A stretch of 64,000 nt of DNA from Chlorobiaceae bacterium (lineage in GTDB: Bacteria > Bacteroidota > Chlorobiia > Chlorobiales > Chlorobiaceae): assembly GCA_013334485.1 (NCBI GenBank), contig JAAXXL010000001.1:38209-102208 (forward strand), given 5' to 3'. Positions 13,967 to 51,730 of this stretch are shown here, piece by piece (positions within the stretch are counted from its first letter, which is position 1; each line of letters starts with the position of its first letter). The notes beneath the pieces are model-generated. The model was not told the DNA's origin, ran no database searches, and saw nothing but the letters and a program-made list of their open reading frames with translations. A program made the translations under genes and the position numbers.

Positions 13967-15121
13967 TCAGTTGGCAAAAGTGATGTTGAGATTTCCTTCG
14001 GCAAAATCAGCCCCTTCAGTCTTGCGCCCAACAAGAACATTCGGAAGAATAATACTTTTACGGAAGTTGTTGATGTCAACCAGCAGTTCATCACCCTTGA
14101 TATTAACATTGAGCTTCTTTACCTCCACGTTGGGCAGATAAAGACTCAGTACATATTTCCCATTAACTTTCTCCAACACCTGGGTCTTCTCATTGTTGTA
14201 AAGAATAGCTGCAGGATTTTGGTCGCCGAACATCTCCTTACTTAAATCATGCAGGCGGTCAGTATTGATAATCTCAGCTGTGGACTGCTTCACCTTGAAA
14301 ATCGGCACCGGATAGAAGCAGTTATCAATCACGCCAAGATATTTCGTCTGGATGTCAATAAGGCTCTGCAGATAGGAATCTGTAGAACTTGAAGGGAGAA
14401 TTTTATTGACTACAGCAGCATCAAGCTTGTAGCCGAAAAGATTGAGATAGGTCTGAACCCGCAAAGCCTCTTTGATAACCATATTTTCCGGGTTGAGAAC
14501 AACCCTGAAGGTAGTTATGGACTTATCCTGAAGCATTGCATGCAGCTCTTTCATATGCTCATTTACCTCAGGCATGAGCTTGAAGATATTTTTCTTCGGC
14601 ATGAACTTGCTCAAAAGCGGAGCAGCAAAGCCAATTGCCTTTGAGTGCCAGCCGCCAATCTTGTCGGAATACCAGCCATAAGATTCCGGCATACCAAGCA
14701 ACCGCATGGTCTCGCCTGTCGGAGCAGCATCAACAACAACAACATCATAATCACCTGACTTGGCAGCCTTCCAGATATAACGAAGGCTGATCATCTCCTC
14801 CATTCCCGGCATGATTGCAAGCTCTTCGGCAACAACCTCATTGGCGCCGTCATGCATTAATATCGATGAGAAATAGGAGTAGAGTTCGTTCCAGTTCTCA
14901 CGAATTTCAGCAAGAACATTAACCTCCATCGCAAAGAGGTTTTTTTCAACTTCAAGTGGAGTAGAAGAGAGTTCAACACTGAAAGCATCAGCAAGACTGT
15001 GAGCAACATCGGTACTCATAATCAAAACCCGTTGTCCTCTCCGGGCAATGGCTGTTGCGGTTGAGGCTGAAACGGTGGTTTTTCCTACCCCTCCTTTACC
15101 CAAGTAAAGAATAATTCTCAT
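13967..15121 (-). CDS. ArsA/Get3-type ATPase at chlorosome locus (copy 1)
   Basis: A 384-residue single-module P-loop ATPase of the ArsA/Get3 family. The deviant P-loop '[11 protein letters not shown]' is at 9-19, switch I is '[12 protein letters not shown]' and switch II is '[12 protein letters not shown]'. The last 80 or so residues form beta-strands that match the alpha-crystallin/Hsp20-like ArsA C-terminal domain. Only one cysteine is present ('DNCF'), so neither the metalloid-binding cysteines of arsenite-pump ArsA nor the CxxC of Get3 exists. It lies 47 bp after the acidic csmA-linked protein gene on the same strand. A role in handling membrane or chlorosome proteins is my inference. 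Confidence 0.88.
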
Positions 15122-15168
15122 GTTGGTAATAAAACTATTGAGTGGAGTTGATCTTGATTGAAAGCCTT

Positions 15169-16737
15169 TTATTGACCCGACAACTTTTTCTCTTCATCTC
15201 CTCCGCCTTCGAGGCGAATGGCGGCAAAAGCTGCGGCGATATCATCCGGATCCGGGAGATTTTCCTCACCCGAATGTTCAGCAGGTTCAAGCACTTTTTC
15301 TTCTTCCTGCACAATCATTATTTTTTTTCTTGCCGTTCCGGCACCGTTCTCAACGGAAACTTTTGGCAAAGCACTCTCAGGAGCACTTTTTTGCCAGGAA
15401 GAGTCATCCGAATGCAGCATATGCTTGACAATGGCAGGTTGACTCTCGTCAAGCGTCGTTATCGAAATACTCTTGCGCCTGGGTGTATCATCGTCGTCAT
15501 CAAGATCTGCAAATGATCGAGCGCTCTTGATTGATGATGCGGAAGAGACTGTAGTCACCTTACCAGGCAAGGGCTCTCTGCCAAAACAGTCATCGTTTCG
15601 CGTAGCATCATCATCACTGCTGATGTTGATCTTTTTGCGTTGAGTGCCAAAATCATCATCATCAAAAGGGTCCCGGCGATCACTACGAGAGGAGTCTCTC
15701 GCTGATCCTGAATTAGAGGTGCTCTTTGGTGAATTTTTCTTTGGCGAACCGCCAAAACTGGAAGAGAGCTTCATAAGCTTGCTGACAGAACCGATCATAC
15801 CGTCATTGCGGACCGCAGTCTTGACGATATTCATAATGAAACGCTCAGCCTGGGGGTTGTCCGAAATGCTGGTCAGCAGCTCAGTGAGGGCAGAAATCAT
15901 GCCTGGAACATGCTGCAAATCACTGCGAACCTGATCACGAAGTTTAAACGGTGCATCGCCAACAATACCCTTCAGTGAATCAACAACTTTTTTCAGTGAA
16001 GCCGGATCTGTTGGAAGAATATTCTCAAGCCCCTTGAGTGCATCAGCAGGTGAAAAACCACCAGCGCCATGCTCACCGCCATGAGATGCTCCGGAAGAGT
16101 GCATTGGGGGCTGCTGAGCGTGTTCAGATGGAGGGTAACCCATGTTTGCCTTGTACTGTTCAAGCAAATCCTGACCATAGCCAATGTGGCTTTCCTGCTG
16201 CGCAGGGTCAGGTGCAGCTAATCTAAGAGTAATGATCTGGGGGGTACAAACTCCCCTCGCGCCCCTGAGAACAGCATCAGCTACTTCGTCGGGCAGATTT
16301 GAACGAAAATTAAGGCCCAGACGCTCTTCTATGATTGACTCAATAACAGTGTGGAGTTTTAAAATTTGATCTGCTTCACGCAGTTCAACCATATCAAAAA
16401 TCACATAGACAGGATCTTTCTCCTCCCTGCGAATTTTCAGATTGAGCGTTGCAAAATCATGATCTTTATTGCGGCTGTTGACGGAAACCGTACCAAGATC
16501 AAATCGGTCAAGAAAGTCTTTTGTGGAACCTCTCGCCCAGAGATAAACCGCCTTGTCGGTGTAGATCAGGTAGTCCTGAAATGCAATATTACCGACACGC
16601 TCCTGATGTGATTCATAAAAGACCCCGTCAAAAAATGCAATCGGGTTCTCCCCTGCACTCATGAGCCCTTTCTGAAAAAACTCGCTTATATCAGCCTGAT
16701 CGGTCTGTCCTGAAACATACAAAGATATATTTGCCAT
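15169..16737 (-). CDS. Acidic two-part protein linked to chlorosome genes; PH-like N-domain, disordered C-half with three repeated motifs
   Basis: About 522 residues from the ATG at 16737 (the track starts at a GTG two codons earlier). Residues 1-150 are a compact mixed alpha/beta region resembling bacterial PH-like domains. About 230-330 is helical. From about 330 on it is low-complexity, Ser/Asp/Glu-rich and probably disordered. The tail carries three spaced copies of a basic-hydrophobic motif: 'TQRKKINI', 'TPRRKSISI' and 'TARKKIMI', each followed by Asp/Glu. It has no signal peptide or membrane helix. It sits between csmA and the first ArsA-type gene, all on the minus strand. No function is known to me; a scaffold or adaptor role is an inference from position and motif repetition. 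Confidence 0.75.
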
Positions 16738-16948
16738 TACCACTACCCGTTCACTTAACTCTTAATGGGACGTTGAAGCGAAATCTATTAAAATTTTAGA
16801 ATAAACAGAAATTAGTCGATCAACAGCACCAATACGCATTCTTGATCAGAAAAGGGAGATGAAAAAGAGTTGCGGAGAATCAACCATCGAATACAAATCA
16901 TGAAGAAACCTTACCGAACATTCAGTAACTGTTCCGGCTTGACACAAA

Positions 16949-16987
16949 TAAAAAAAGGCAGTGAAACATGAAACTTTTCACTGCCTT
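16949..16987 (-). terminator. csmA: Terminator downstream of csmA
   Basis: Read on the minus strand, AAGGCAGTGAAA pairs with TTTCACTGCCTT around a 9-base loop and is followed by seven Ts. It lies 23 bp past the csmA stop, so most csmA transcripts should end here and the downstream gene may need its own promoter. Confidence 0.88.
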
Positions 16988-17009
16988 ATCAAAGATGATC
17001 TCTATCTGC

Positions 17010-17252
17010 TTACTTCGCAAACTTTGAAGCAACTTCTTTTGAAGGAACAGCATAACCGGTAACTTCAGGTGATCCACCACGAAGGCTTGTGCCTCCGCCC
17101 ATGCTGCCGTATGCATTGCGGTTGATTCTCATGGTACCTTTGCCCAGTGAATCAAACAGCATACCAACGGTTTCCCAATGGCCTTCAACCATTACTTCAA
17201 AAATGCGACCGGCTGCAGCCAGGATATCAGTAAAAACGCCACCACCACTCAT
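17010..17252 (-). CDS. csmA: Chlorosome baseplate protein CsmA precursor
   Basis: An 80-residue precursor of the bacteriochlorophyll a-binding baseplate protein, the most abundant chlorosome envelope protein. The N-terminal '[20 protein letters not shown]' and the His25 region 'VEGHWETVG' match known CsmA almost exactly. His25 is the proposed bacteriochlorophyll ligand. Known CsmA is matured by removal of about 20 C-terminal residues after the 'GSMGGG' region; this copy has 'GGGTSLRGG' there, which looks one residue longer than the C. tepidum form as I remember it. A strong ribosome site 'AAGGAGG' precedes the ATG. It lies 143 bp after csmC and is followed by a strong terminator. Confidence 0.98.
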
Positions 17253-17257
17253 AATTC

Positions 17258-17269
17258 CTCCTTGGAATT
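17258..17269 (-). promoter_or_regulatory. csmA: Strong Shine-Dalgarno of csmA
   Basis: On the minus strand the sequence CCAAGGAGGAATT directly precedes the csmA ATG with normal spacing. Many other genes in this window have weak or no such site, so this fits very high expression. Confidence 0.8.
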
Positions 17270-17353
17270 AAATTATTGGAAAGTTATCTGAGATTTAAAA
17301 CAGTATTCTGCAATCAATTTACAGTAATAAACGAAAAAACACAAAAAAAATAA

Positions 17354-17380
17354 CCGGGGCCGTAACCTGAAGGGCCGCGG
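17354..17380 (-). terminator. Attenuator-like hairpin between csmC and csmA
   Basis: On the minus strand CCGCGGCC pairs with GGCCCCGG (one mismatch) around an 11-base loop and is followed by TTATTTTTTTTG. It starts 16 bp after the csmC stop. It could reduce read-through or protect a processed csmC end, consistent with a separate abundant csmA transcript. Confidence 0.65.
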
Positions 17381-17395
17381 AAAGAACAAAACAAA

Positions 17396-17815
17396 CTATT
17401 TTCTTATCGGTCCTTTCTGAAATGAGCCGGTAAAATTCTTGACTGCAGTTGAAGCTGAAACCCCTACATCACCGACAGCAGTTGCCGCATTGGTTGTTGC
17501 ATTTTCAACGGTTTCAACAGCGTTGGCATAAAGCTCGTTTGCAGTTCTTGATGCATCCTTGACAGTAATGGCTACACGGTCAATAGTCTCACCGACCACT
17601 CCTCCGGTATTGCCAAGCAGATTACCAATACCTGAAGCATCAATAACAGCTCCAACGGTACCGGTGACGGTATCAAAAAGGCTACCGGCAATATTCAGGC
17701 TTCCTACAACAGCACTCTGACCGGTCAAGAGAACACTTTCAGCAAGAAAGGTGAGGCGATCTGTAAATTCAAGCTCCTTGAAATCCTTGCGCAGTTTCTG
17801 GTACGATTCCGACAT
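17396..17815 (-). CDS. csmC: Chlorosome envelope protein CsmC
   Basis: A 139-residue chlorosome envelope protein. The charged N-terminus ('[20 protein letters not shown]') is followed by a long Gly/Ala/Val-rich hydrophobic stretch (about 30-75) and an alanine-rich amphipathic tail. This is the CsmC/CsmD pattern, and csmC directly precedes csmA in known green sulfur bacteria. It acts in the lipid monolayer of the chlorosome; its exact role is not settled, and loss in C. tepidum is reported to be mild. A strong 'GGGAGG' ribosome site precedes the ATG. Confidence 0.92.
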
Positions 17816-17877
17816 ATTTTCCTCCCTGGAAATGAGGCTGCAAAACAGAGCCCCGGTTATGATATATAGTTAACGAG

Positions 17878-17883
17878 ATTATA
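17878..17883 (-). promoter_or_regulatory. csmC: Candidate -10 element upstream of csmC
   Basis: The minus strand reads TATAAT here, 63 bp before the csmC start codon and between it and the upstream ATPase gene stop. The hexamer about 17 bp upstream is a poor -35 match, so this is a candidate only. Confidence 0.35.
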
Positions 17884-17939
17884 TGCAAATAAGTTAAACA
17901 TAAAATCTATGCGAAGCAAACACTCTTCCTCCACCCAAG

Positions 17940-19172
17940 TCAAGCTCTCTGGTGGTGATGGCTTTTCTGTTCTTTCAACAGGCGGTTCTGCTCATTCTGG
18001 TCAAGGTCAAAGGGTATGTGAAGCCATTTGTCCTTGAAGACCGCGTTACCCGGCTCAAGCCCGGTAAGACTGATCGGAAGAGTAATGATTTTCCGCTGGT
18101 TTCCTATCTGAACATAAAGCTCGTCACCGGTAACCCAGACATCAATATCAACAGGATTGGCAAACATCAGCTTCAACTGCACCTCATAAACATCCTTGAT
18201 TCTGACAAATTTTATCGGTGGTTCATCATACATCAAGTCCGACGGGTCCGTGTCACCGTACATATCCTTTGCAAACTGATCAAGAGCGGCAAGACCTACA
18301 ATTTCCTGCTCATACATCCTGAGTTTTTTAACCGGAAGCGGAGCAAAACCCTCTTCAATTTCTCCAAGATACTTCTGCTGGATGGTTTTCCACTTTTCAA
18401 GGTAACCACTGTCCTCATTGGTGTCAAGCAGCCTGTTGACAAGCACCATATCCACCTTGAAACCGTAAAGATTCAGATAGGTCAAAGCCCGCATGGTCTC
18501 CTTTATAGACATCTTCTCCGCATTCATGACCAGACGTACCGTTGACTTCACATTATCCGTCAGAATTTCACGGATATCCTCAAGCTCTTCAAAAACCTGG
18601 TCAACCGACTCAATCGCATCTTCAGGAGGAACAAAATGGGCAATCTTGTCAGACATTTTCGAAAGCGGCTTGCTGAGCGGGCGGATTATATATTTATTGA
18701 CATTTTTTATAGCTTTCATTCCCCATGCAAGCGTATCGGGAAGAGAGAGCAGCCGGAGGGTCTCTCCGGTCGGGGCAGTATCGAGCACCAGCACATCATA
18801 AAGTCCGGAGGTTTTATACCGCTTTATTCGCAAGAGTGAAAAAAGCTCTTCCATTCCGGGAAGAATAGTCATCTCATCAGTCATCACCCCGGAAACACCC
18901 TGGGCCATGAACACCTTTGCATAGTATTTCTGAACAGACTGCCAGTTCTGCTTGAGATCTACATAAGGGTTAACCTCAATGGCATGAAGGTTCTCCCTGA
19001 TTTTTGTAGGTTCAGCACCAAGAGGAAGGTTGAATGAATCCGACAGACTGTGAGCAGGATCGGTTGAAAGAATAAGGGTACGATAACCCATACCTGACAA
19101 ACGGACTGCTGTAGCTGCTGATACACTGGTTTTGCCTACCCCGCCTTTACCAGTAAATGTTAAAATACGCAT
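17940..19172 (-). CDS. ArsA/Get3-type ATPase at chlorosome locus (copy 2)
   Basis: A 410-residue paralogue of the ATPase at 13967-15121. The deviant P-loop '[11 protein letters not shown]' is at 8-18, switch I is 'STDPAHSLSDSF', and switch II is 'DTAPTGETLRLL'. The C-terminal beta-rich region (about 315-395, 'YEVQLKLMFANPVDIDVWV') fits an Hsp20-like domain, and the protein ends in a basic His-rich tail. It contains no cysteine at all, which rules out thiol-based arsenite binding. It is the first gene before csmC on the same strand with a 124-bp gap. Four 17-bp-spaced half-sites lie directly upstream. The two copies bracket csmC-csmA. Confidence 0.88.
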   Translation of the reverse strand: MRILTFTGKGGVGKTSVSAATAVRLSGMGYRTLILSTDPAHSLSDSFNLPLGAEPTKIRENLHAIEVNPYVDLKQNWQSVQKYYAKVFMAQGVSGVMTDEMTILPGMEELFSLLRIKRYKTSGLYDVLVLDTAPTGETLRLLSLPDTLAWGMKAIKNVNKYIIRPLSKPLSKMSDKIAHFVPPEDAIESVDQVFEELEDIREILTDNVKSTVRLVMNAEKMSIKETMRALTYLNLYGFKVDMVLVNRLLDTNEDSGYLEKWKTIQQKYLGEIEEGFAPLPVKKLRMYEQEIVGLAALDQFAKDMYGDTDPSDLMYDEPPIKFVRIKDVYEVQLKLMFANPVDIDVWVTGDELYVQIGNQRKIITLPISLTGLEPGNAVFKDKWLHIPFDLDQNEQNRLLKEQKSHHHQRA

Positions 19173-27635: not shown

Positions 27636-30600
27636 ATGCACGATAAAATCAGAATTGCCGCTATTGTCGGGATGGAGCAATGCAATCAGCGGGTATGGCG
27701 CGAGGTTACGTCTAAAATTTCCGCACATGCTGAATTAACCCAATGGACCGATCAGGACCTTGAGCATCAGAATCCTGAAACGGCCGAAGCCATCCGCAAT
27801 GCCGACTGCATTTTTACCACCCTGATTCAGTTCAAGGGGCAGGCTGACTGGCTTCAGGAGCAGATCGAACAGTCAAAGGTGAAAACCATCTTTGCCTATG
27901 AGTCAATGCCGGAAGTAATGCAGCTGACTAAAATAGGCACTTATGTTGTATCCGGAGACGGCAGCGGTATGCCCGATATCGTCAAGAAGGTTGCCAAGAT
28001 GCTGGTTAAGGGACGCGATGAGGACGCACTTTACGGCTACATGAAGCTGCTGAAAATCATGCGCACCATGCTGCCGCTCATCCCGAAAAAGGCAAAGGAT
28101 TTCAAAAACTGGATGCAGGTTTACACCTACTGGATGAACCCGACCACTGATAATCTGGCCTCGATGTTCAACTACATCATGGCAGAGTACTTTGAAGCGG
28201 GTATCAAGGTTGAAAAGGTCGTTGAGGTTCCCACCATGGGCTTCTACCACCCGGATGCACCGGAGTACCAGAAGGATCTGCACCATTACGAAAAGTGGCT
28301 GCACAAGCACAAAAAAGGTTCTGAAAAAAACAGAAATATCGGGCTCCTCTTCTTCCGCAAGCATCTGTTGCAGGAGAAAGAGTATATCGACAATACCATT
28401 CGCGCAATAGAAGCAAAAGGGCTCAATCCCCTGCCGGTATTTGTCATGGGTGTTGAAGGTCACGTCGCCGCCAGAGAGTGGTTTACCCATAACAACATCG
28501 ACATGCTCGTCAACATGATGGGCTTCGGCTTTGTGGGCGGCCCGGCGGGCGCAACAACACCGGGTGCATCTTCAGCCGCACGTGATGAGATTCTGGGCAA
28601 AATCAATGCCCCCTACGTCGTTTCACAGCCGCTCTTCATACAGGATGTGGCATCATGGAAGTCACAGGGCGTTGTACCGCTCCAGTCCGCCATGACCTAC
28701 TCCCTGCCTGAAATGGATGGCGCAGTATGCCCGGTTGTGCTCGGCGCCATCAAGGATGGCCGTCTTCAGACTGTGCCTGACCGTCTTGAAAGGCTTGCAG
28801 GAATAGCTAAAAAAATTTCCGGGCTGCGTCAGACCCCCAACAAGGCAAAAAAGGTTGCCCTTGTAGTCTACGACTATCCGCCGGGCATGGGTAAAAAAGC
28901 CAGCGCTGCGCTGCTTGACGTACCGAAAAGTATCTACAATATTCTCCTGACGCTTCGTGCTGAAGGATATAATGTCGGGGAACTGCCGGAATCACCGGAA
29001 GTTCTGCTTGCGATGCTCGACAGAGCTACCGATTACGAAATCCAGGCACATGAGCAGGATTGCTTCGCCATTGACCGCGAAACCTTCAACAGCATCACCA
29101 GCTCAAGAGAGCGTGAACGCATTGAAGGGCGCTGGAGCGGCTTCCCCGGCGAGATCGGGCCAATCAAGCCCGACAAACTCTTTATCGGTGGTCTGACACT
29201 CGGCAACATCTTTATCGGTGTTCAGCCGCGCCTCGGTATCCAGGGTGACCCGATGCGCCTGCTCTTCGACAAGGAGAACACACCGCACCATCAATATATC
29301 GCCTTCTACCGCTGGATCAGTCGTGTGTTCGGAGCCAATGCCATGGTACACATCGGTATGCACGGCACAGCCGAGTGGATGCCCGGCCTTCAGCTCGGTG
29401 TAACCGGCGACTGCTGGTCAGACGCCCTGCTCGGTGAGGTACCGCATTTCTATATCTACCCGATCAACAACCCGAGCGAAGCCAACATCGCCAAGCGACG
29501 CGGCTACGCAACCATGATTTCGCACAACATCCCGCCACTTGCACGCGCCGGACTCTACAAGGAGCTCCCGGCATTCAAGGAGATGCTGAATGACTACCGC
29601 GAACGTGGGCTCGAAAAGATCGTGGATGTCGAAACTGAAGAGGTCATTATCACCAAGGCGCAGCAGCTCAACCTGACTGATGACTGCCCCCGAATCGAGG
29701 GTGAGAACTTCCAGGACTATATCAGCCGTCTCTACACCTATATGATGGAGCTTGAAGGACGCTTGATCTCCAACTCGCTTCACGTCTTTGGCGAAACACC
29801 GAAGCTTGAAACCCAGGTAACAACCATTACCGAGTACCTGAAAGTGCGCGGCAACGAAAAATCGCTACCGTCAATCATCATGCAGGCGATCGGTGAAGAC
29901 AAACTCTTTGGTGATTATGCCTCGCTCGCTACCCGCGCGCGCAAGGGAGAGCCGCAAGCCATGAAAGCACGCGAACAGGTGGACGATCACACCCGCGAGT
30001 TTATACAGCAAACCATTTTCGGCCAGAGCAATCCGGGAACTGTCTTTAACGTCCTGACCGGCGGAGCAAAGATTTCGCAGGAGATGGGTGAAGCTATCAA
30101 CACCGCACTCCAGGACGGCCTTGCCCTCAAGCGCGCTCTTGAAGACAACAGCGGCGAGATGAAGGGCTTCCTCCGCGCCCTTTGCGGAGAGTATATTCCC
30201 TCCGGATCAGGCGGCGACCTTGTGCGAGACGGAGCTGGCATTCTGCCAACCGGACGCAACATCCACGCCATTGACCCCTGGCGCATTCCTTCGGAACTTG
30301 CATTCAAACGCGGACGGCAGATCGCCGACTCGATCATCAATCGCCACGTCGAAGAGAACAACGGCGAGTACCCTGAAACCATTGCACAGGTGCTATGGGG
30401 ACTTGATACCATCAAGAGCAAGGGTGAAGCTGTAGCCGTCATCATTCATCTCATGGGAGCTGAGCCGGCTTACGACGCCCAGGGCAAAATCAGCCACTAC
30501 CGCCTCGTTCCTCTCGAAAAGCTCGGTCGTCCGAGAATCGACGTTCTGATTCAGATCAGCTCGATTTTCCGCGACACCTTCGGAGTCCTTGTCGACCACC

Positions 30601-31439
30601 TCGACAAACTGGTCAAGGATGCTGCAAAAGCCATTGAGCCCCACGAGATGAACCACATCAAAAAGCATGTGGATGAAGCAATTAAAGCGGGAAGTGATTT
30701 CGAAAGTGCCACCTCGCGTCTCTTCACCCAGGCCCCCGGAGCATACGGCTCACAGGTTGAGGAGCTGGTTGAGGATTCAGCATGGGAGTCAGAAGAGGAT
30801 CTCGACAACATGTTCATCAAGCGCACAGGATTTGCCTACGGTGGCAACCGCTACGGTGACCAGCAGACCGATATTCTCAAAGGTCTTCTCAGCACCGTTG
30901 ACCGTGTTGTACAGCAGGTTGACTCGGCAGAGTTCGGCATTACCGATATCGACCGCTACTTCTCCTCATCGGGAGCACTGCAACTCTCAGCCCGTCGCCG
31001 CAACCCGAAAGGTGACAAGGTAAAACTGAACTATGTGGAAACCTTTACGGCAGATGTTAAAATCGACGATGCCGACAAGGCTCTGAAAGTGGAGTTCCGC
31101 AGCAAACTGCTCAACCCGAAATGGTTTGAGACCATGCTTGAACAAGGGCACAGCGGAGCAACCGAAATCAGCAACCGCTTTACCTACATGCTCGGCTGGG
31201 ATGCCGTCACCAAAGGTGTAGACGACTGGGTCTACAAAGAGGCTGCCGAAACCTACGCCATGGATCCGAAAATGCGCGAACGACTCATGAAGGTCAATCC
31301 AAAAGCCTTCAAGAACATCGTAGGCCGTATGCTCGAAGCCAGCGGACGCGGCATGTGGAGCGCCGATCCGGAGATGATCGAAAAACTCCAGGAGATCTAC
31401 TCCGACCTTGAAGACCGTCTCGAAGGGATCGAGGTTTAA
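27636..31439 (+). CDS. bchH: Magnesium chelatase large subunit (BchH/BchS/BchT family)
   Basis: A 1267-residue porphyrin-binding subunit that, with BchI and BchD, inserts Mg into protoporphyrin IX. It shows the CobN/BchH family layout: N-terminal head (about 1-500), conserved 'FRWISRVFGANAMVHIGMHGTAEWMPG'-type central region around the active-site histidines and glutamate ('HIGMHGTAEW', about residue 573), and the C-terminal domains. Green sulfur bacteria carry three paralogues. I assign BchH because bchM and bchE follow, the order I remember for C. tepidum bchH; I cannot exclude BchS or BchT by eye. bchI and bchD are not in the window. Confidence 0.9.
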   Translation: MHDKIRIAAIVGMEQCNQRVWREVTSKISAHAELTQWTDQDLEHQNPETAEAIRNADCIFTTLIQFKGQADWLQEQIEQSKVKTIFAYESMPEVMQLTKIGTYVVSGDGSGMPDIVKKVAKMLVKGRDEDALYGYMKLLKIMRTMLPLIPKKAKDFKNWMQVYTYWMNPTTDNLASMFNYIMAEYFEAGIKVEKVVEVPTMGFYHPDAPEYQKDLHHYEKWLHKHKKGSEKNRNIGLLFFRKHLLQEKEYIDNTIRAIEAKGLNPLPVFVMGVEGHVAAREWFTHNNIDMLVNMMGFGFVGGPAGATTPGASSAARDEILGKINAPYVVSQPLFIQDVASWKSQGVVPLQSAMTYSLPEMDGAVCPVVLGAIKDGRLQTVPDRLERLAGIAKKISGLRQTPNKAKKVALVVYDYPPGMGKKASAALLDVPKSIYNILLTLRAEGYNVGELPESPEVLLAMLDRATDYEIQAHEQDCFAIDRETFNSITSSRERERIEGRWSGFPGEIGPIKPDKLFIGGLTLGNIFIGVQPRLGIQGDPMRLLFDKENTPHHQYIAFYRWISRVFGANAMVHIGMHGTAEWMPGLQLGVTGDCWSDALLGEVPHFYIYPINNPSEANIAKRRGYATMISHNIPPLARAGLYKELPAFKEMLNDYRERGLEKIVDVETEEVIITKAQQLNLTDDCPRIEGENFQDYISRLYTYMMELEGRLISNSLHVFGETPKLETQVTTITEYLKVRGNEKSLPSIIMQAIGEDKLFGDYASLATRARKGEPQAMKAREQVDDHTREFIQQTIFGQSNPGTVFNVLTGGAKISQEMGEAINTALQDGLALKRALEDNSGEMKGFLRALCGEYIPSGSGGDLVRDGAGILPTGRNIHAIDPWRIPSELAFKRGRQIADSIINRHVEENNGEYPETIAQVLWGLDTIKSKGEAVAVIIHLMGAEPAYDAQGKISHYRLVPLEKLGRPRIDVLIQISSIFRDTFGVLVDHLDKLVKDAAKAIEPHEMNHIKKHVDEAIKAGSDFESATSRLFTQAPGAYGSQVEELVEDSAWESEEDLDNMFIKRTGFAYGGNRYGDQQTDILKGLLSTVDRVVQQVDSAEFGITDIDRYFSSSGALQLSARRRNPKGDKVKLNYVETFTADVKIDDADKALKVEFRSKLLNPKWFETMLEQGHSGATEISNRFTYMLGWDAVTKGVDDWVYKEAAETYAMDPKMRERLMKVNPKAFKNIVGRMLEASGRGMWSADPEMIEKLQEIYSDLEDRLEGIEV

Positions 31440-31463
31440 CTCTCGCAGAATACATGTACTCCC

Positions 31464-31491
31464 AAAAAGCACGGCTCCCCCCGTGCTTTTT
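31464..31491 (+). terminator. Hairpin after bchH
   Basis: AAAAAGCACGG pairs with CCGTGCTTTTT around CTCCCC, 25 bp after the bchH stop, with further Ts. It suggests that bchM is not simply co-transcribed with bchH. Confidence 0.85.
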
Positions 31492-31517
31492 GGTTTTAAA
31501 ATAAGTGGCCCTCGCCC

Positions 31518-31572
31518 CAAAGCACTCTTTAATCTTCTATAAGGCCTATAAGACGTATTGGCCCTATATTTC
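31518..31572. repeat. Repeat family E, copy 2 (imperfect palindrome)
   Basis: Starts with the same 'AAAGCACTCTTTAATCTT' flank as copy 1 at 21979, then TATAAGGCC and GGCCCTATA form a 9-bp imperfect stem. The palindrome is degraded compared with copy 1. Confidence 0.65.
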
Positions 31573-31580
31573 CCTTCAAC

Positions 31581-31610
31581 AAGGCAAACACGCAGGTTTG
31601 CCCCTACACC
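31581..31610. repeat. Repeat family B copy (diverged)
   Basis: 'AAGGCAAACACGCAGGTTTG' followed by CCCCTACACC has the same outer arms and 'CCCCTACACC' end as the other copies but an altered core. Confidence 0.5.
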
Positions 31611-31969
31611 TTTTCGTGTTAATTCGCGCAATTCGCGGACAACCTTCCCCTCTTCAATTCAGAATCCATCATCTCTTAATCATCGGTATTGCTGATAATG
31701 ATCATTATTATGAGTATCTTGGCGGAGTTTAAAAAAACGTGAAGCCACCCGGCAAGGTAAAAAGCAGAACATCTGTTCGCTCGAAAAAATGGTCTCGCTT
31801 GAAGCTCCTCAAAGCACTCTTCCGAGGGTTTCGGGAAGCAGAAGCAGAGACTATCGATGAGCTGGCAGGAACTCAATGCCGATCTCGAAACAAGAATTGA
31901 AAGGGTTCATGAGTGCATTCACGCAACTGTTTTTTTAAGACTACATCAAGAAACATCAAAACCTATACC

Positions 31970-32668
31970 ATGAGCAGCTCCTCATTCAATGCTGAAGAAC
32001 ACAAAAAAATGCTCCGCTCCTACTTCAACGGGCAGGGCTTCCAGCGATGGGCATCAATATACGGAGACGACAAACTCTCCTCAGTACGCAATACCGTCCG
32101 ACAGGGCCATGCGGTCATGATGGACAAGGCATTTGACTGGCTGCAAAAGCTTGGGCTGCCGAAAGGAGCAACCGTACTTGATGCAGGCTGTGGCACCGGA
32201 CTCTTCAGCATCAGACTGGCAAAAGCAGGCTACAAGGTAAAGTCGGTCGATATCGCATCACAGATGGTCGGAAAGGCAAAAGAGGAAGCCATAAAGCAGG
32301 GGGTTGACGGCAACATTGAATTCGAAGTCAATACCATTGAATCGGTAAGCGGCACCTATGACGCCGTGGTCTGTTTTGATGTGCTTATCCACTACCCGGC
32401 AGAAGGATTTGCCGAGGCCTTCCGCAATCTGAGCAGCCTCACAAAAGGGTCGGTTATTTTCACCTATGCTCCATACAACAACATTCTTGCCTTCCAGCAC
32501 TGGATCGGAGGCTATTTCCCGAAAAAGGAACGGAGAACAACCATCCAGATGATCCGCGATGAGGAGATGCAGCGAGCAATGGAGAGAGCAGGGATGGAGG
32601 TAAAAAGCCGTGAAAAGATCAGTTTTGGCTTTTATCACACCATGCTGATGAATGCATCGCATAAGTAA
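31970..32668 (+). CDS. bchM: Mg-protoporphyrin IX methyltransferase
   Basis: SAM-dependent O-methyltransferase that methylates the ring-C propionate of Mg-protoporphyrin IX, the step between BchH and BchE. From the ATG at 31970 ('[19 protein letters not shown]') it has 232 residues; the track adds 19 residues from an upstream GTG, which family comparison does not support. The SAM motif I is '[16 protein letters not shown]' (about 68-83), with '[11 protein letters not shown]' as the post-motif. The region '[19 protein letters not shown]' is typical of BchM/ChlM. Confidence 0.93.
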
Positions 32669-32818
32669 GGGTTTAATCTGCGAAAACCATAAGAGATTTT
32701 TCCAAATAAATTGTAAATTAAAAATCAAGGGATTTTTTACTGGTAGATCGGCGTTCCCCCTTAGCGAGTAAAGAGATTCCTATTTTTGTTAAAAAACATA
32801 TCTGGAGGGTGAAGACTG

Positions 32819-34459
32819 ATGAAAATACTGATGGTTCAGCCAAATTATCATTCAGGTGGAGCTGAAATTGCCGGTAACTGGACGCCAAGCTGGGTAGCCT
32901 ACATCGGTGGCGCCCTTAAACATGCAGGGTTTGACCAGGTGCGCTTTGTTGACGCCATGGCCGACAATCTTGAAGACGATCAGATTGAAGAGATCATCAG
33001 AAAAAACAAGCCTGATGTGGTAATGGCAACCAATATTACCCCATCTATCTTCAAGGCACAGGACATTATGAAGGTCGCCAAAAAGGTTGACCCGAAAATA
33101 AGAACCATAATGGGTGGTATTCATTCGACCTTCATGTACCCGCAGGTACTGAGCGAAGCACCCGAGACCGACTATGTTGTCCGTGGAGAAGGCGAAGAGG
33201 TTACCGTTAACCTCATCAGAGAGATCGCTGCCGGTACCGACCGGGAGAACCGCGCCAACATCACTGGTATCGCCTATCTTGATGACGAGGGCAAGGTGTT
33301 TGCAACCGCTGCACATCCGGTAATCGAGGATCTCGATACCCTTACCCCCGACTGGAGCCTCTACGACTGGGATAAATATATCTACACCCCGCTCAACTGC
33401 CGTCTTGCTGTACCGAACTTTGCAAGAGGATGCCCCTTTACCTGTACCTTCTGCTCACAGTGGCAGTTCTGGCGCCGGTACCGTGCACGCAGCCCGAAAC
33501 TCTTTGTTGATGAAATCGAGGTACTCGTTAAGAAATACAACGTTGGATTCTTTATCCTTGCTGACGAAGAGCCGACTATCAACAAGCAGAAATTCGTATC
33601 ACTCTGTCAGGAGCTGATCGACCGCAAACTCAACGTCTCCTGGGGTATCAACACCCGCGTTACCGACATTATGCGTGATGCTGATCTGCTCCCATTCTTC
33701 CGCAAGGCAGGCCTTGTACACGTCTCGCTTGGAACAGAGGCTGCAAGCCAGATGAACCTGAACCGGTTCCGCAAAGAGACCACAATTGAGGAGAACAAGT
33801 TCGCCATCAAGCTGCTTCAGAAAAACGGCATCGTAGCTGAAGCACAGTTTGTAATGGGACTTGAGCATGAAACTCCTGAGACCATCGAAGAGACCTACCA
33901 GCTCTGCAAAGACTGGGATCCTGATATGGCCAACTGGACAATCTACACCCCATGGCCATTCTCCGATCTCTTCAAAGAGCTTGGCGACAGGGTTGAAGTA
34001 CGCGACTACTCCAAGTACAACTTTGTGACGCCTATCATCAAGCCGGATAACATGGAGCGTGAGGATGTGCTCAAGGGCGTGCTGAAATCATATGCACGGT
34101 TCTATGCACGCAAAACCTTCTTCAGCTACCCATGGATCAAAGATCCTTATGTGCGCAAGTACATGCTTGGATGCCTGAAGGCTTTTGCCCAGACAACCAT
34201 CACCAAGCGCTTCTACGATATCGACCGCGTCAAGACCAAGAACAACAAGATCGAAATCGATCTCGGCTTTGACAAGTCAAGAATCCTGACACAGAATGAG
34301 GTCAAAAACCTCAAGGAACTGCGTCCGGAGATGGTTGCCGACATGAGCTTCGGTCTCAAGGAAGCTGGCTATCAGCGTGAGCATGATGAGCACAACTGGG
34401 ACGAGTTTGACGAGTCCACCATCAAGGATCGCAACTCTTCAACAGTACGCAACTGCTGA
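32819..34459 (+). CDS. bchE: Anaerobic Mg-protoporphyrin IX monomethyl ester cyclase
   Basis: A 546-residue radical-SAM enzyme with an N-terminal cobalamin-binding domain (about 1-150, 'MKILMVQPNYHSGG') and a radical-SAM domain with the [4Fe-4S] motif C-x3-C-x2-C in 'GCPFTCTFCSQW' (about 203-214). It forms the isocyclic fifth ring of bacteriochlorophyll without oxygen, as expected for an anaerobic phototroph. A good ribosome site 'TGGAGGGTG' precedes the ATG. It follows bchM by 150 bp and ends at a strong terminator. Confidence 0.96.
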   Translation: MKILMVQPNYHSGGAEIAGNWTPSWVAYIGGALKHAGFDQVRFVDAMADNLEDDQIEEIIRKNKPDVVMATNITPSIFKAQDIMKVAKKVDPKIRTIMGGIHSTFMYPQVLSEAPETDYVVRGEGEEVTVNLIREIAAGTDRENRANITGIAYLDDEGKVFATAAHPVIEDLDTLTPDWSLYDWDKYIYTPLNCRLAVPNFARGCPFTCTFCSQWQFWRRYRARSPKLFVDEIEVLVKKYNVGFFILADEEPTINKQKFVSLCQELIDRKLNVSWGINTRVTDIMRDADLLPFFRKAGLVHVSLGTEAASQMNLNRFRKETTIEENKFAIKLLQKNGIVAEAQFVMGLEHETPETIEETYQLCKDWDPDMANWTIYTPWPFSDLFKELGDRVEVRDYSKYNFVTPIIKPDNMEREDVLKGVLKSYARFYARKTFFSYPWIKDPYVRKYMLGCLKAFAQTTITKRFYDIDRVKTKNNKIEIDLGFDKSRILTQNEVKNLKELRPEMVADMSFGLKEAGYQREHDEHNWDEFDESTIKDRNSSTVRNC

Positions 34460-50731: not shown

Positions 50732-51730
50732 TTACATATACTTCATGCCGACCATACCAGCCACAAGAAGATTATTGATCAAAAACAGAACGTTGTTTGC
50801 TATCTGAAAACGAAGAAACGCATTGTGCTCCTGAACATCACTTTTACCGAGAACATTACCGAATCCATCCTCAACAGCACTGTTCATGAATGAGATTCCC
50901 CCTTTCGGATCTCGCAGAAGCTGAACCTGAAGAACCAGATTAAGCACAAGCCCGATCAAAACAAAGGCCATGGGAATCAGAAATCCCCAGGTAAAGGAGA
51001 GCCAGGCAAGAACGGCAAAAACAAGGTCAATAATTACAAATGAGACCAGAAAGGTCTTGCGGGCACCAATCATCACCGTCATTGACTTGAGACCACCCTC
51101 TTTATCACCTTCCGCAGACTTGAAGTCATTAAGAATGATCAAGGCCACTGCCATGAAAAAGTTAAGACTTGCGAGCCATATTGCTTCAGGACGAATATCA
51201 CCGAAAAGGGCATTTGCCGAGATGAAAGAGACGAAGCCATAGGAAAAGCCGACGGCCGGCGCTGAGGTAAGAATGTTTTTTTTCAGCTTGAGGGGCGGTG
51301 CTGAATAGATATAGGCAACAACCAGAGCTGATAAAATCGAAGCCACAATCACAATGCCACGAACTCCACCGATATGCACTCCAAGCAGCACACCAAGACC
51401 AATGGCAAGAAGAAGTGCAATAATGCTGTTCCATAATCCCTCTTTTTCTGTCAGCCTTCCGGATGGAATCGGACGGGTAGGTTCATTGACCCGGTCAAGT
51501 TCAAGATCAAAGCAGTCGTTGACTGACTGACTGAAACCGGTTCCAAGAGGACCGAACATCAGAAAAATGGCAAAAAGAAGAAGATAGTCGTGAAGGGTAG
51601 GCTGCATGGCACCGGATGCCATAACACCTCCGGCAAGGCACGGAAAAACGCTGATCCAGGTAACAGGATCCAGCAGTTCAAGATGTGCTCTAACTTTATC
51701 GGTAAACCCAAGTCTTGCAGGAACTGGCAT
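50732..51730 (-). CDS. bchK: Bacteriochlorophyll synthase of the UbiA family, probable BchK
   Basis: A 332-residue integral membrane prenyltransferase. It shows the Asp-rich motif 'NDCFDLELDRVNEPTRPIP' (about 71-89), a second motif 'NDFKSAEGDKEGGLKSM' (about 201-217) and seven to nine helices. It attaches the isoprenoid tail to (bacterio)chlorophyllide; BchK uses farnesyl diphosphate for bacteriochlorophyll c, d or e. BchG and ChlG paralogues exist in these bacteria. I choose BchK because I recall it near CruC in C. tepidum; sequence by eye does not separate them. The next gene on the strand is the prenol kinase. Confidence 0.82.
   Translation of the reverse strand: MPVPARLGFTDKVRAHLELLDPVTWISVFPCLAGGVMASGAMQPTLHDYLLLFAIFLMFGPLGTGFSQSVNDCFDLELDRVNEPTRPIPSGRLTEKEGLWNSIIALLLAIGLGVLLGVHIGGVRGIVIVASILSALVVAYIYSAPPLKLKKNILTSAPAVGFSYGFVSFISANALFGDIRPEAIWLASLNFFMAVALIILNDFKSAEGDKEGGLKSMTVMIGARKTFLVSFVIIDLVFAVLAWLSFTWGFLIPMAFVLIGLVLNLVLQVQLLRDPKGGISFMNSAVEDGFGNVLGKSDVQEHNAFLRFQIANNVLFLINNLLVAGMVGMKYM

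Follow-up and report, generated by a model that had tools for sequence, protein, structure and literature searches.

Architecture of the csmCA locus

The window analyzed here is a 64,000-nucleotide stretch of contig JAAXXL010000001.1 from a Chlorobiaceae bacterium, and the element in question is a group of five genes within it that includes csmC and csmA, the genes for chlorosome envelope protein C and the chlorosome baseplate protein. In the direction of transcription, the genes encode an ATPase (ATPase-B), CsmC, CsmA, an acidic protein and a second ATPase (ATPase-A). A first-pass annotation, made from the sequence alone, had placed all five on one strand in this order, and the open reading frames (ORFs) agree with it exactly: all lie on the minus strand, separated by gaps of 124, 143, 272 and 47 bases (Table 1). 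The csmA and csmC genes are ordinary members of their own Pfam families, with scores of 112.6 bits for CsmA (PF02043, cut-off 25) and 205.9 bits for CsmC (PF11098, cut-off 26.3). A promoter scan of the locus gave signals no better than those in shuffled sequences.

Table 1. Features of the csmCA locus, in window coordinates and in the order of transcription
Feature	Coordinates	Strand	Basis
ATPase-B, Get3d-type, 410 amino acids	17940..19172	-	ORF, Pfam and tree
ATPase-B C-terminal Hsp20-like domain	~18009-18194	-	PF17886
csmC, chlorosome envelope protein C, 139 amino acids	17396..17815	-	PF11098, E = 3e-61
csmC RVAITVKD stretch	17555-17578	-	invariant among orthologues
csmA, chlorosome baseplate protein, 80 amino acids	17010..17252	-	PF02043, E = 9.2e-33
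Intrinsic terminator-like hairpin and T-run, 12-bp stem AAGGCAGTGAAA	16955..16987	-	free energy -16.3 kcal/mol, z-score -4.15
Acidic adaptor-like protein, 522 amino acids from ATG	15169..16737	-	ORF; family without Pfam entry
Acidic protein, predicted N-terminal PH-like domain, residues 1-171	16225..16737	-	AlphaFold2, Foldseek, hhalign
Acidic protein, disordered tail segment with three basic-I-x-I motifs	15313..15639	-	motif search
Tail motif RKKINI	15622-15639	-	
Tail motif RRKSISI	15460-15480	-	
Tail motif RKKIMI	15313-15330	-	
ATPase-A, Get3d-type, 384 amino acids	13967..15121	-	ORF and Pfam
ATPase-A C-terminal Hsp20-like domain	~13976-14164	-	PF17886

The flanking ATPases have the Get3d architecture

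Both ATPases match ArsA_ATPase (PF02374; E = 9.7e-116 for ATPase-B and 1.4e-83 for ATPase-A), each in a single stretch of its 410 or 384 amino acids. At both C-termini, ArsA_HSP20 (PF17886) exceeds its cut-off (E = 1.4e-19 for ATPase-B and 3.2e-19 for ATPase-A), in line with the beta-rich, Hsp20-like region that the first-pass annotation had described, and seven C-terminal strands are predicted in an ATPase-A orthologue. The intact P-loops and switch motifs read from the sequence are likewise confirmed. The deviant Walker A motif GKGGVGKT lies at residue 8 in both proteins and is kept in every Chlorobi orthologue (50/50 for ATPase-B, 49/49 for ATPase-A). Switch I is STDPAHS in ATPase-B and STD(V/I)AHS among ATPase-A orthologues (STDVAHS in the window), while switch II, DTAPTGETLRLL in ATPase-B, is invariant among the orthologues of each ATPase. 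The cysteine counts are also as first given, none in ATPase-B and one in ATPase-A (C268), and the CxxC motif of Get3 is absent from both ATPases and present in 0 of the 99 orthologues.

Genes of this kind have been annotated as ArsA-type arsenite efflux ATPases since the C. tepidum genome paper, and its six "ArsA" homologues are still called arsenite ATPases in a review that cites it (PMC11269200). Membership in PF02374 agrees with this function, but each protein has one domain and at most one cysteine, and the arsenite-pump model TIGR04291 scores only 118 and 91 bits for the two ATPases against a cut-off of 650. The general model TIGR00345 (GET3/ArsA/TRC40), in contrast, exceeds its cut-off, as expected for the Get3-like, non-pump identity that had been proposed. 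A separate double-domain ArsA-like gene is found elsewhere in the source genome, on contig C127. On domain number, cysteine content and model scores, we rejected an arsenite-pump identity, whose probability we consider close to negligible.

By sequence, the best relatives of known structure are mostly archaeal Get3 and algal ArsA1; the Nostoc and Arabidopsis Get3d structures also match, at an identity of only about 20–22%. For a comparison of folds we used an AlphaFold2 read-through model of the acidic protein and ATPase-A from locus L189, an artificial, monomeric model built from 55 alignment rows, in which the stop codon was read as glycine as a modeling device. In Foldseek, the ATPase-A orthologue in this model matched archaeal Get3 (TMt 0.73–0.80), Nostoc Get3d (8egk; E = 7.8e-21, TMt 0.72) and Arabidopsis Get3d (8elf; E = 1.2e-17, TMt 0.63). 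Both ATPases have the architecture of Get3d, and as this architecture was published in 2023 (Barlow et al., PMC10248533), the type of ATPase is not new. The first-pass annotation spoke of two ATPases; both are present at the locus, but the number is too narrow for the genome, as PF17886 matches occur in every Chlorobia genome searched, with about six full-length ATPases per complete genome.

Gene order is conserved throughout Chlorobia

Every Chlorobia locus with an adequate assembly, across all four families, has the order ATPase-B, csmC, csmA, acidic protein, ATPase-A, and the acidic protein has matches in 89 of 98 Chlorobia genomes, spanning all nine genera. Departures occur only at contig ends and in genome G039, where the sole PF02043 gene is CsmE-like. 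A scan of contigs for csmA added 51 Chlorobi-type loci with the same order, incomplete only at contig ends. Genes immediately flanking the group are common within Chlorobiaceae (up to 7/7) and are found in no more than one of nine loci of the other families, and in all nine of these loci ATPase-B, the acidic protein and ATPase-A are present. A coarse gene caller identified csmC in seven of the nine, and a homology search over every reading frame identified it in all.

Several observations accompany this comparison. In the families other than Chlorobiaceae, csmC and csmA are separated by an additional small gene (L090:8103-8420, L091:8140-8481, L095:8201-8533, L096:6649-6990, L089:3111-3512, L087:8345-8557 and L088:8499-8711); several copies end in TISIKPK, TIPIRPA or AIPIKKK, that is, in I-x-I with basic residues. 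Genome G039 (locus L086; 1.6 Mb, reported as 96% complete) has one CsmE-like gene, no csmA-type gene, no acidic-protein gene and three PF17886 matches, a gene poverty that reflects either a reduced genome or a missing contig. In Chlorobaculum-type genomes (L100:5460-10536; also L099 and L101), another Get3d gene is found about 4 kb away from a CsmE-like csmA paralogue and a hydrophobic gene that may be CsmD-like, an arrangement not seen in the source genome. The window itself also contains bchH, bchM and bchE in a row (27636-34459) and, further on, the bacteriochlorophyll c (BChl c) synthase gene bchK (50732-51730).

ATPase-B and the acidic family accompany csmA in Chloroflexales

The contig scan for csmA was seeded with a Chloroflexus CsmA sequence, confirmed by matches at 96–99% identity. 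It yielded only Chloroflexota and Chlorobi, besides one 3.3-kb contig labelled Latescibacterota (L226) that carries Chlorobi ATPase-B, csmC and csmA and is probably a binning contaminant. The comparison covers these two phyla; the third with chlorosomes is that of Chloracidobacterium. In the 29 Chloroflexota loci, wherever contigs allow, ATPase-B and csmA are followed on the same strand by two acidic-protein homologues and then by two more Get3d-type ATPases, as a common core. The ATPase preceding csmA scores 517–536 bits against the Chlorobi ATPase-B profile, and a profile–profile comparison (hhalign) of the Chlorobi and Chloroflexales acidic families gave a probability of 99.2 (E = 1.5e-19) over the N-terminal domain. 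The comparison of gene order that the first-pass annotation had called for thus returned the full order in four Chlorobia families and the core in 29 Chloroflexales loci; given this retention, the arrangement is not a product of chance.

Two further features of the Chloroflexales cluster may be recorded. Its last ATPase (L155:14147-15247 and equivalents) retains the alpha-crystallin region, has a destroyed P-loop and is likely a pseudo-ATPase. Downstream in Chloroflexus, a protein of 237–262 amino acids (L155:17179-17967; G334:C1:3538957-3539670) carries one RRIKV motif in its C-terminal tail.

Co-occurrence was assessed in 82 Chloroflexales genomes, of which 33 carry csmA, with ATPase-B orthologues called at an identity of at least 78% and E < 1e-200. 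ATPase-B is present in 33/33 csmA-positive and 1/49 csmA-negative genomes, and the acidic family shows the same counts (33/33 and 1/49), so that each of the two is missing from 48 csmA-less genomes. The single exceptions, G344 for ATPase-B and G349 for the acidic family, each have the gene on a short contig that breaks off next to it, on the side where csmA would lie. Generic Hsp20-tailed ATPases with about 40% identity occur in most csmA-less genomes, one or two in each. Fisher's test gives p ~4e-22 for the co-occurrence, a descriptive value uncorrected for relatedness. One csmA-less genome without ATPase-B or the acidic family, G385, is presumably Roseiflexus sp. RS-1. Roseiflexus is a phototroph without chlorosomes (PMC6180586). 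Searched within the class Chlorobia and the order Chloroflexales, the acidic family occurs essentially only together with csmA. ATPase-B, csmA and the acidic family form a gene cluster that is kept across two phyla and absent from csmA-less sister genomes.

The ATPase-B clade and its neighbors

In the phylogenetic tree of the ATPases, a single clade (support 99/98), made up of chlorosome bearers only, unites Chlorobia ATPase-B with its csmA-linked counterpart in Chloroflexales and with one further Chlorobia group. The second Chloroflexales ATPase joins another Chlorobia group (100/100). Some deep joins of the tree are flagged for long branches.

Second copies of ATPase-B lie outside the csmCA locus. 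In the source genome, one such copy (contig C17, L114:1-4332) is next to genes for a chlorophyll synthase and a radical-SAM protein, and another, in G036 (L126:4082-9721), adjoins BchU and two radical-SAM genes. In Chloroflexus, the csmA cluster itself extends, by way of hydrolase genes, as far as bchU and a UbiA/synthase-like gene, consistent with the published clustering of bchU, bchK and csm genes (PMC3150298). These neighborhoods speak for a role in chlorosome biogenesis, but would also suit a module that handles pigment or lipid instead of delivering proteins. Where chlorosomes bud, the Get3d chamber of such a module would carry BChl c precursors, quinones or glycolipid, or would chaperone membrane-bound pigment enzymes such as BchK/BchG and BchU. 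The Get3d paper also describes an unidentified density inside the chamber (PMC10248533). However, the nearest neighbor gene in every csmA locus encodes a baseplate or envelope protein, not a pigment enzyme, and no structure shows pigment in Get3d; we consider a pigment or lipid role unlikely.

The acidic protein combines a predicted PH-like domain with a motif-repeat tail

The acidic protein has a net charge of −23, and a Pfam search assigned it to no family. AlphaFold2, run with 37 family members, gave a predicted local distance difference test score of about 94 for residues 1–170, weak helices up to residue 324, and a disordered tail thereafter. With high confidence, the N-terminus is predicted as strands followed by a helix (residues 119–140), as in the PH superfold, whose seven-stranded barrel is capped by a C-terminal helix, and Foldseek returned PH domains first for this region (TMt up to 0.68).

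The tail of the window protein carries the motifs RKKINI, RKSISI and RKKIMI. Across the family, the motif R-[RK]-[KS]-I-x-[IV]-[KR] occurs one to seven times per protein, in some families at the extreme C-terminus. A loose form of the pattern, framed on Chlorobi tails and then applied to Chloroflexales, was found 122 times in 40 Chlorobi tails (4.8 ± 2.0 in shuffles), 68 times in 23 tails of the second Chloroflexales homologue (2.2 ± 1.5) and 18 times in 20 tails of the first (0.5). The strict motif is present in 49/49 Chlorobi proteins and 27/27 second homologues, at a density of about 14 per 1000 amino acids in tails compared with 0.30 in 560 background proteins; it is absent from the first Chloroflexales homologue, where the version is RREIPLRRR. 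Because the pattern was defined after the sequences of both phyla had been viewed, the enrichment is supportive rather than blind. In CsmC, a stretch R[VI][AV]ITVKD that resembles the tail motif is kept in 20/20 orthologues.

A partner with a PH-like domain and a multivalent tail, next to deviant-Walker ATPases that weakly match ParA/CbiA models in a Pfam-level scan, would also suit a MinD/ParA-like system that positions or scaffolds chlorosomes on the membrane without transfer of clients. The ATPases are Get3-like and not MinD/ParA-like by both sequence and fold, however, and the many paralogues per genome suit a diversity of clients; such a positioning system seems to us decidedly unlikely.

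Proposed role of the module

Taken together, the module very likely serves chlorosome biogenesis in some way. More specifically, we favor, with a probability of roughly 55%, a dedicated module in which Get3d ATPases chaperone CsmA and CsmC as client proteins and the acidic PH-tail protein acts as their adaptor. In such a module, Get3d dimers would use ATP cycling and a hydrophobic client chamber to keep clients soluble after synthesis, and would pass them on to the monolayer or baseplate of the growing chlorosome. As clients, we envisage envelope and baseplate proteins that are short, amphipathic and prone to aggregate, primarily CsmA and, in Chlorobia, CsmC; pigment enzymes may be further clients. 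The acidic protein would serve as a multivalent adaptor, its PH-like domain binding the envelope, the membrane or a partner and its disordered basic-I-x-I tail recruiting several client-loaded ATPases, possibly via the groove in the alpha-crystallin domain of each. Small heat-shock proteins bind such I-x-I motifs in their alpha-crystallin grooves, and since both ATPases end in an alpha-crystallin domain, a similar docking of the tails may be envisaged. We put forward only tentatively an assembly pathway common to Chlorobi and Chloroflexota, consisting of client-specialized Get3d ATPases and a PH adaptor family whose repeated tail motifs would recruit alpha-crystallin domains at the growing envelope.

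Several points weigh against the chaperone–adaptor proposal. Client binding and delivery by the ATPases are steps that we infer, and CsmA and CsmC are not tail-anchored proteins. All tail motifs remained disordered in the artificial, monomeric read-through model, so that I-x-I docking on the alpha-crystallin domain is not supported by this model. Co-transcription of the five genes is doubtful in Chlorobi, because a conserved terminator after csmA divides csmCA from the acidic protein and ATPase-A: a terminator-like hairpin and T-run lies 3′ of csmA in 41/51 Chlorobi loci and in 0/29 Chloroflexales loci. In Chlorobi, csmCA and the acidic protein–ATPase-A pair may accordingly be separate transcription units. 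Furthermore, other Get3d paralogues adjoin housekeeping genes, and the sister group of ATPase-A (100/100) is a generic Chloroflexota ATPase that occurs both with and without chlorosomes. The tree thereby excludes that both ATPases are chlorosome-specific, as ATPase-A is not.

The position of ATPase-A is one that general proteostasis genes merely sharing the locus would also explain, with Get3d as a housekeeping chaperone and the linkage as the result of old operon drift. Bacteroidota outside Chlorobia, too, can carry one such gene: nine genomes, chosen for strong Hsp20-like scores from a 297-genome search, each have one full-length ATPase of this type, with 38–41% identity to ATPase-B. Against drift, the linkage persists across phyla and through the loss of flanking synteny, and the distribution of ATPase-B and the acidic protein follows that of csmA almost without exception, which makes this explanation very unlikely. 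The first-pass annotation had named equal occurrence of the ATPases in chlorosome-less relatives, at unrelated loci, as the outcome that would speak against it. For ATPase-B, and likewise for the acidic protein, we found the opposite (1/49 csmA-negative genomes each, at a contig end), and for ATPase-A such occurrence is seen in part. Its proposal of a dedicated delivery or assembly machine is thus favored by the deep conservation of the block and by the tracking of csmA by ATPase-B and the acidic family in Chloroflexales, but is weakened by ATPase-A relatives in csmA-less genomes.

Both the route by which proteins reach the chlorosome lipid monolayer and the mode of chlorosome formation, by budding or by aggregation, are unsettled (PMC9316378). 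With ATPase-B and the acidic family, the present analysis adds two conserved partners to the csmA locus of both phyla, and it offers a concrete candidate set of clients for Get3d, whose photosynthetic role is unknown. In green bacteria, the genes annotated as arsenite-pump ATPases probably encode factors for the assembly of the light antenna. The module seems to have moved together with csmA, which bears on the movement of chlorosomes between phyla. If the docking version of the proposal holds, an organelle bounded by a lipid monolayer would be served by a GET-like delivery route that uses an I-x-I docking code similar to that of small heat-shock proteins. The Get3d ATPase family itself is already known. 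Our search of the open literature (subscription literature lay outside it) found no paper linking csmA with ArsA or Get3; relative to the literature searched, what appears to be new is the family of the acidic partner, the linkage across phyla and the Get3d clade restricted to chlorosome bearers.

Comparison with known systems

The closest known system is Get3d, with structures from Nostoc (8egk/3igf) and Arabidopsis (8elf). Like the window ATPases, Get3d joins a Get3/ArsA ATPase to a C-terminal alpha-crystallin domain and has no CxxC. According to Barlow et al. (PMC10248533), Get3d proteins hydrolyze ATP and bind tail-anchored clients, their alpha-crystallin domain has no known role, and a hydrophobic insert is conserved across the family; Get3d is reported there from green sulfur and nonsulfur bacteria, with five copies in one Chlorobium. 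The consulted parts of that paper report no csmA linkage and no PH-tail partner, nor do they divide the family into a clade restricted to chlorosome bearers, like ATPase-B, and a generic clade of the ATPase-A type.

With Get3/TRC40 of the GET pathway, the window ATPases share the fold, the P-loop and the switches. They differ in lacking the zinc-binding CxxC and in having the additional alpha-crystallin domain, and no Get1/Get2 receptor or Get4/5 was seen near them. Furthermore, the clients of Get3/TRC40 are tail-anchored proteins, whereas those proposed here are chlorosome envelope proteins. The arsenite-pump ATPase ArsA belongs to the same superfamily; unlike it, the window ATPases have neither tandem halves nor the metalloid cysteine set, and no pump genes lie nearby. 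Bacterial and eukaryotic PH-domain proteins share the fold predicted for residues 1–171 of the acidic protein, which differs from them in having no sequence family match and in joining its PH-like part to a helical region and a basic-I-x-I repeat tail.

Of the genes for the two proposed clients, only csmA is essential, and csmC can be dispensed with (PMC12214013). An earlier description has CsmA as the one chlorosome protein common to the chlorosome phyla (PMC9316378); at the csmA locus, ATPase-B and the acidic family would add to what the phyla share.

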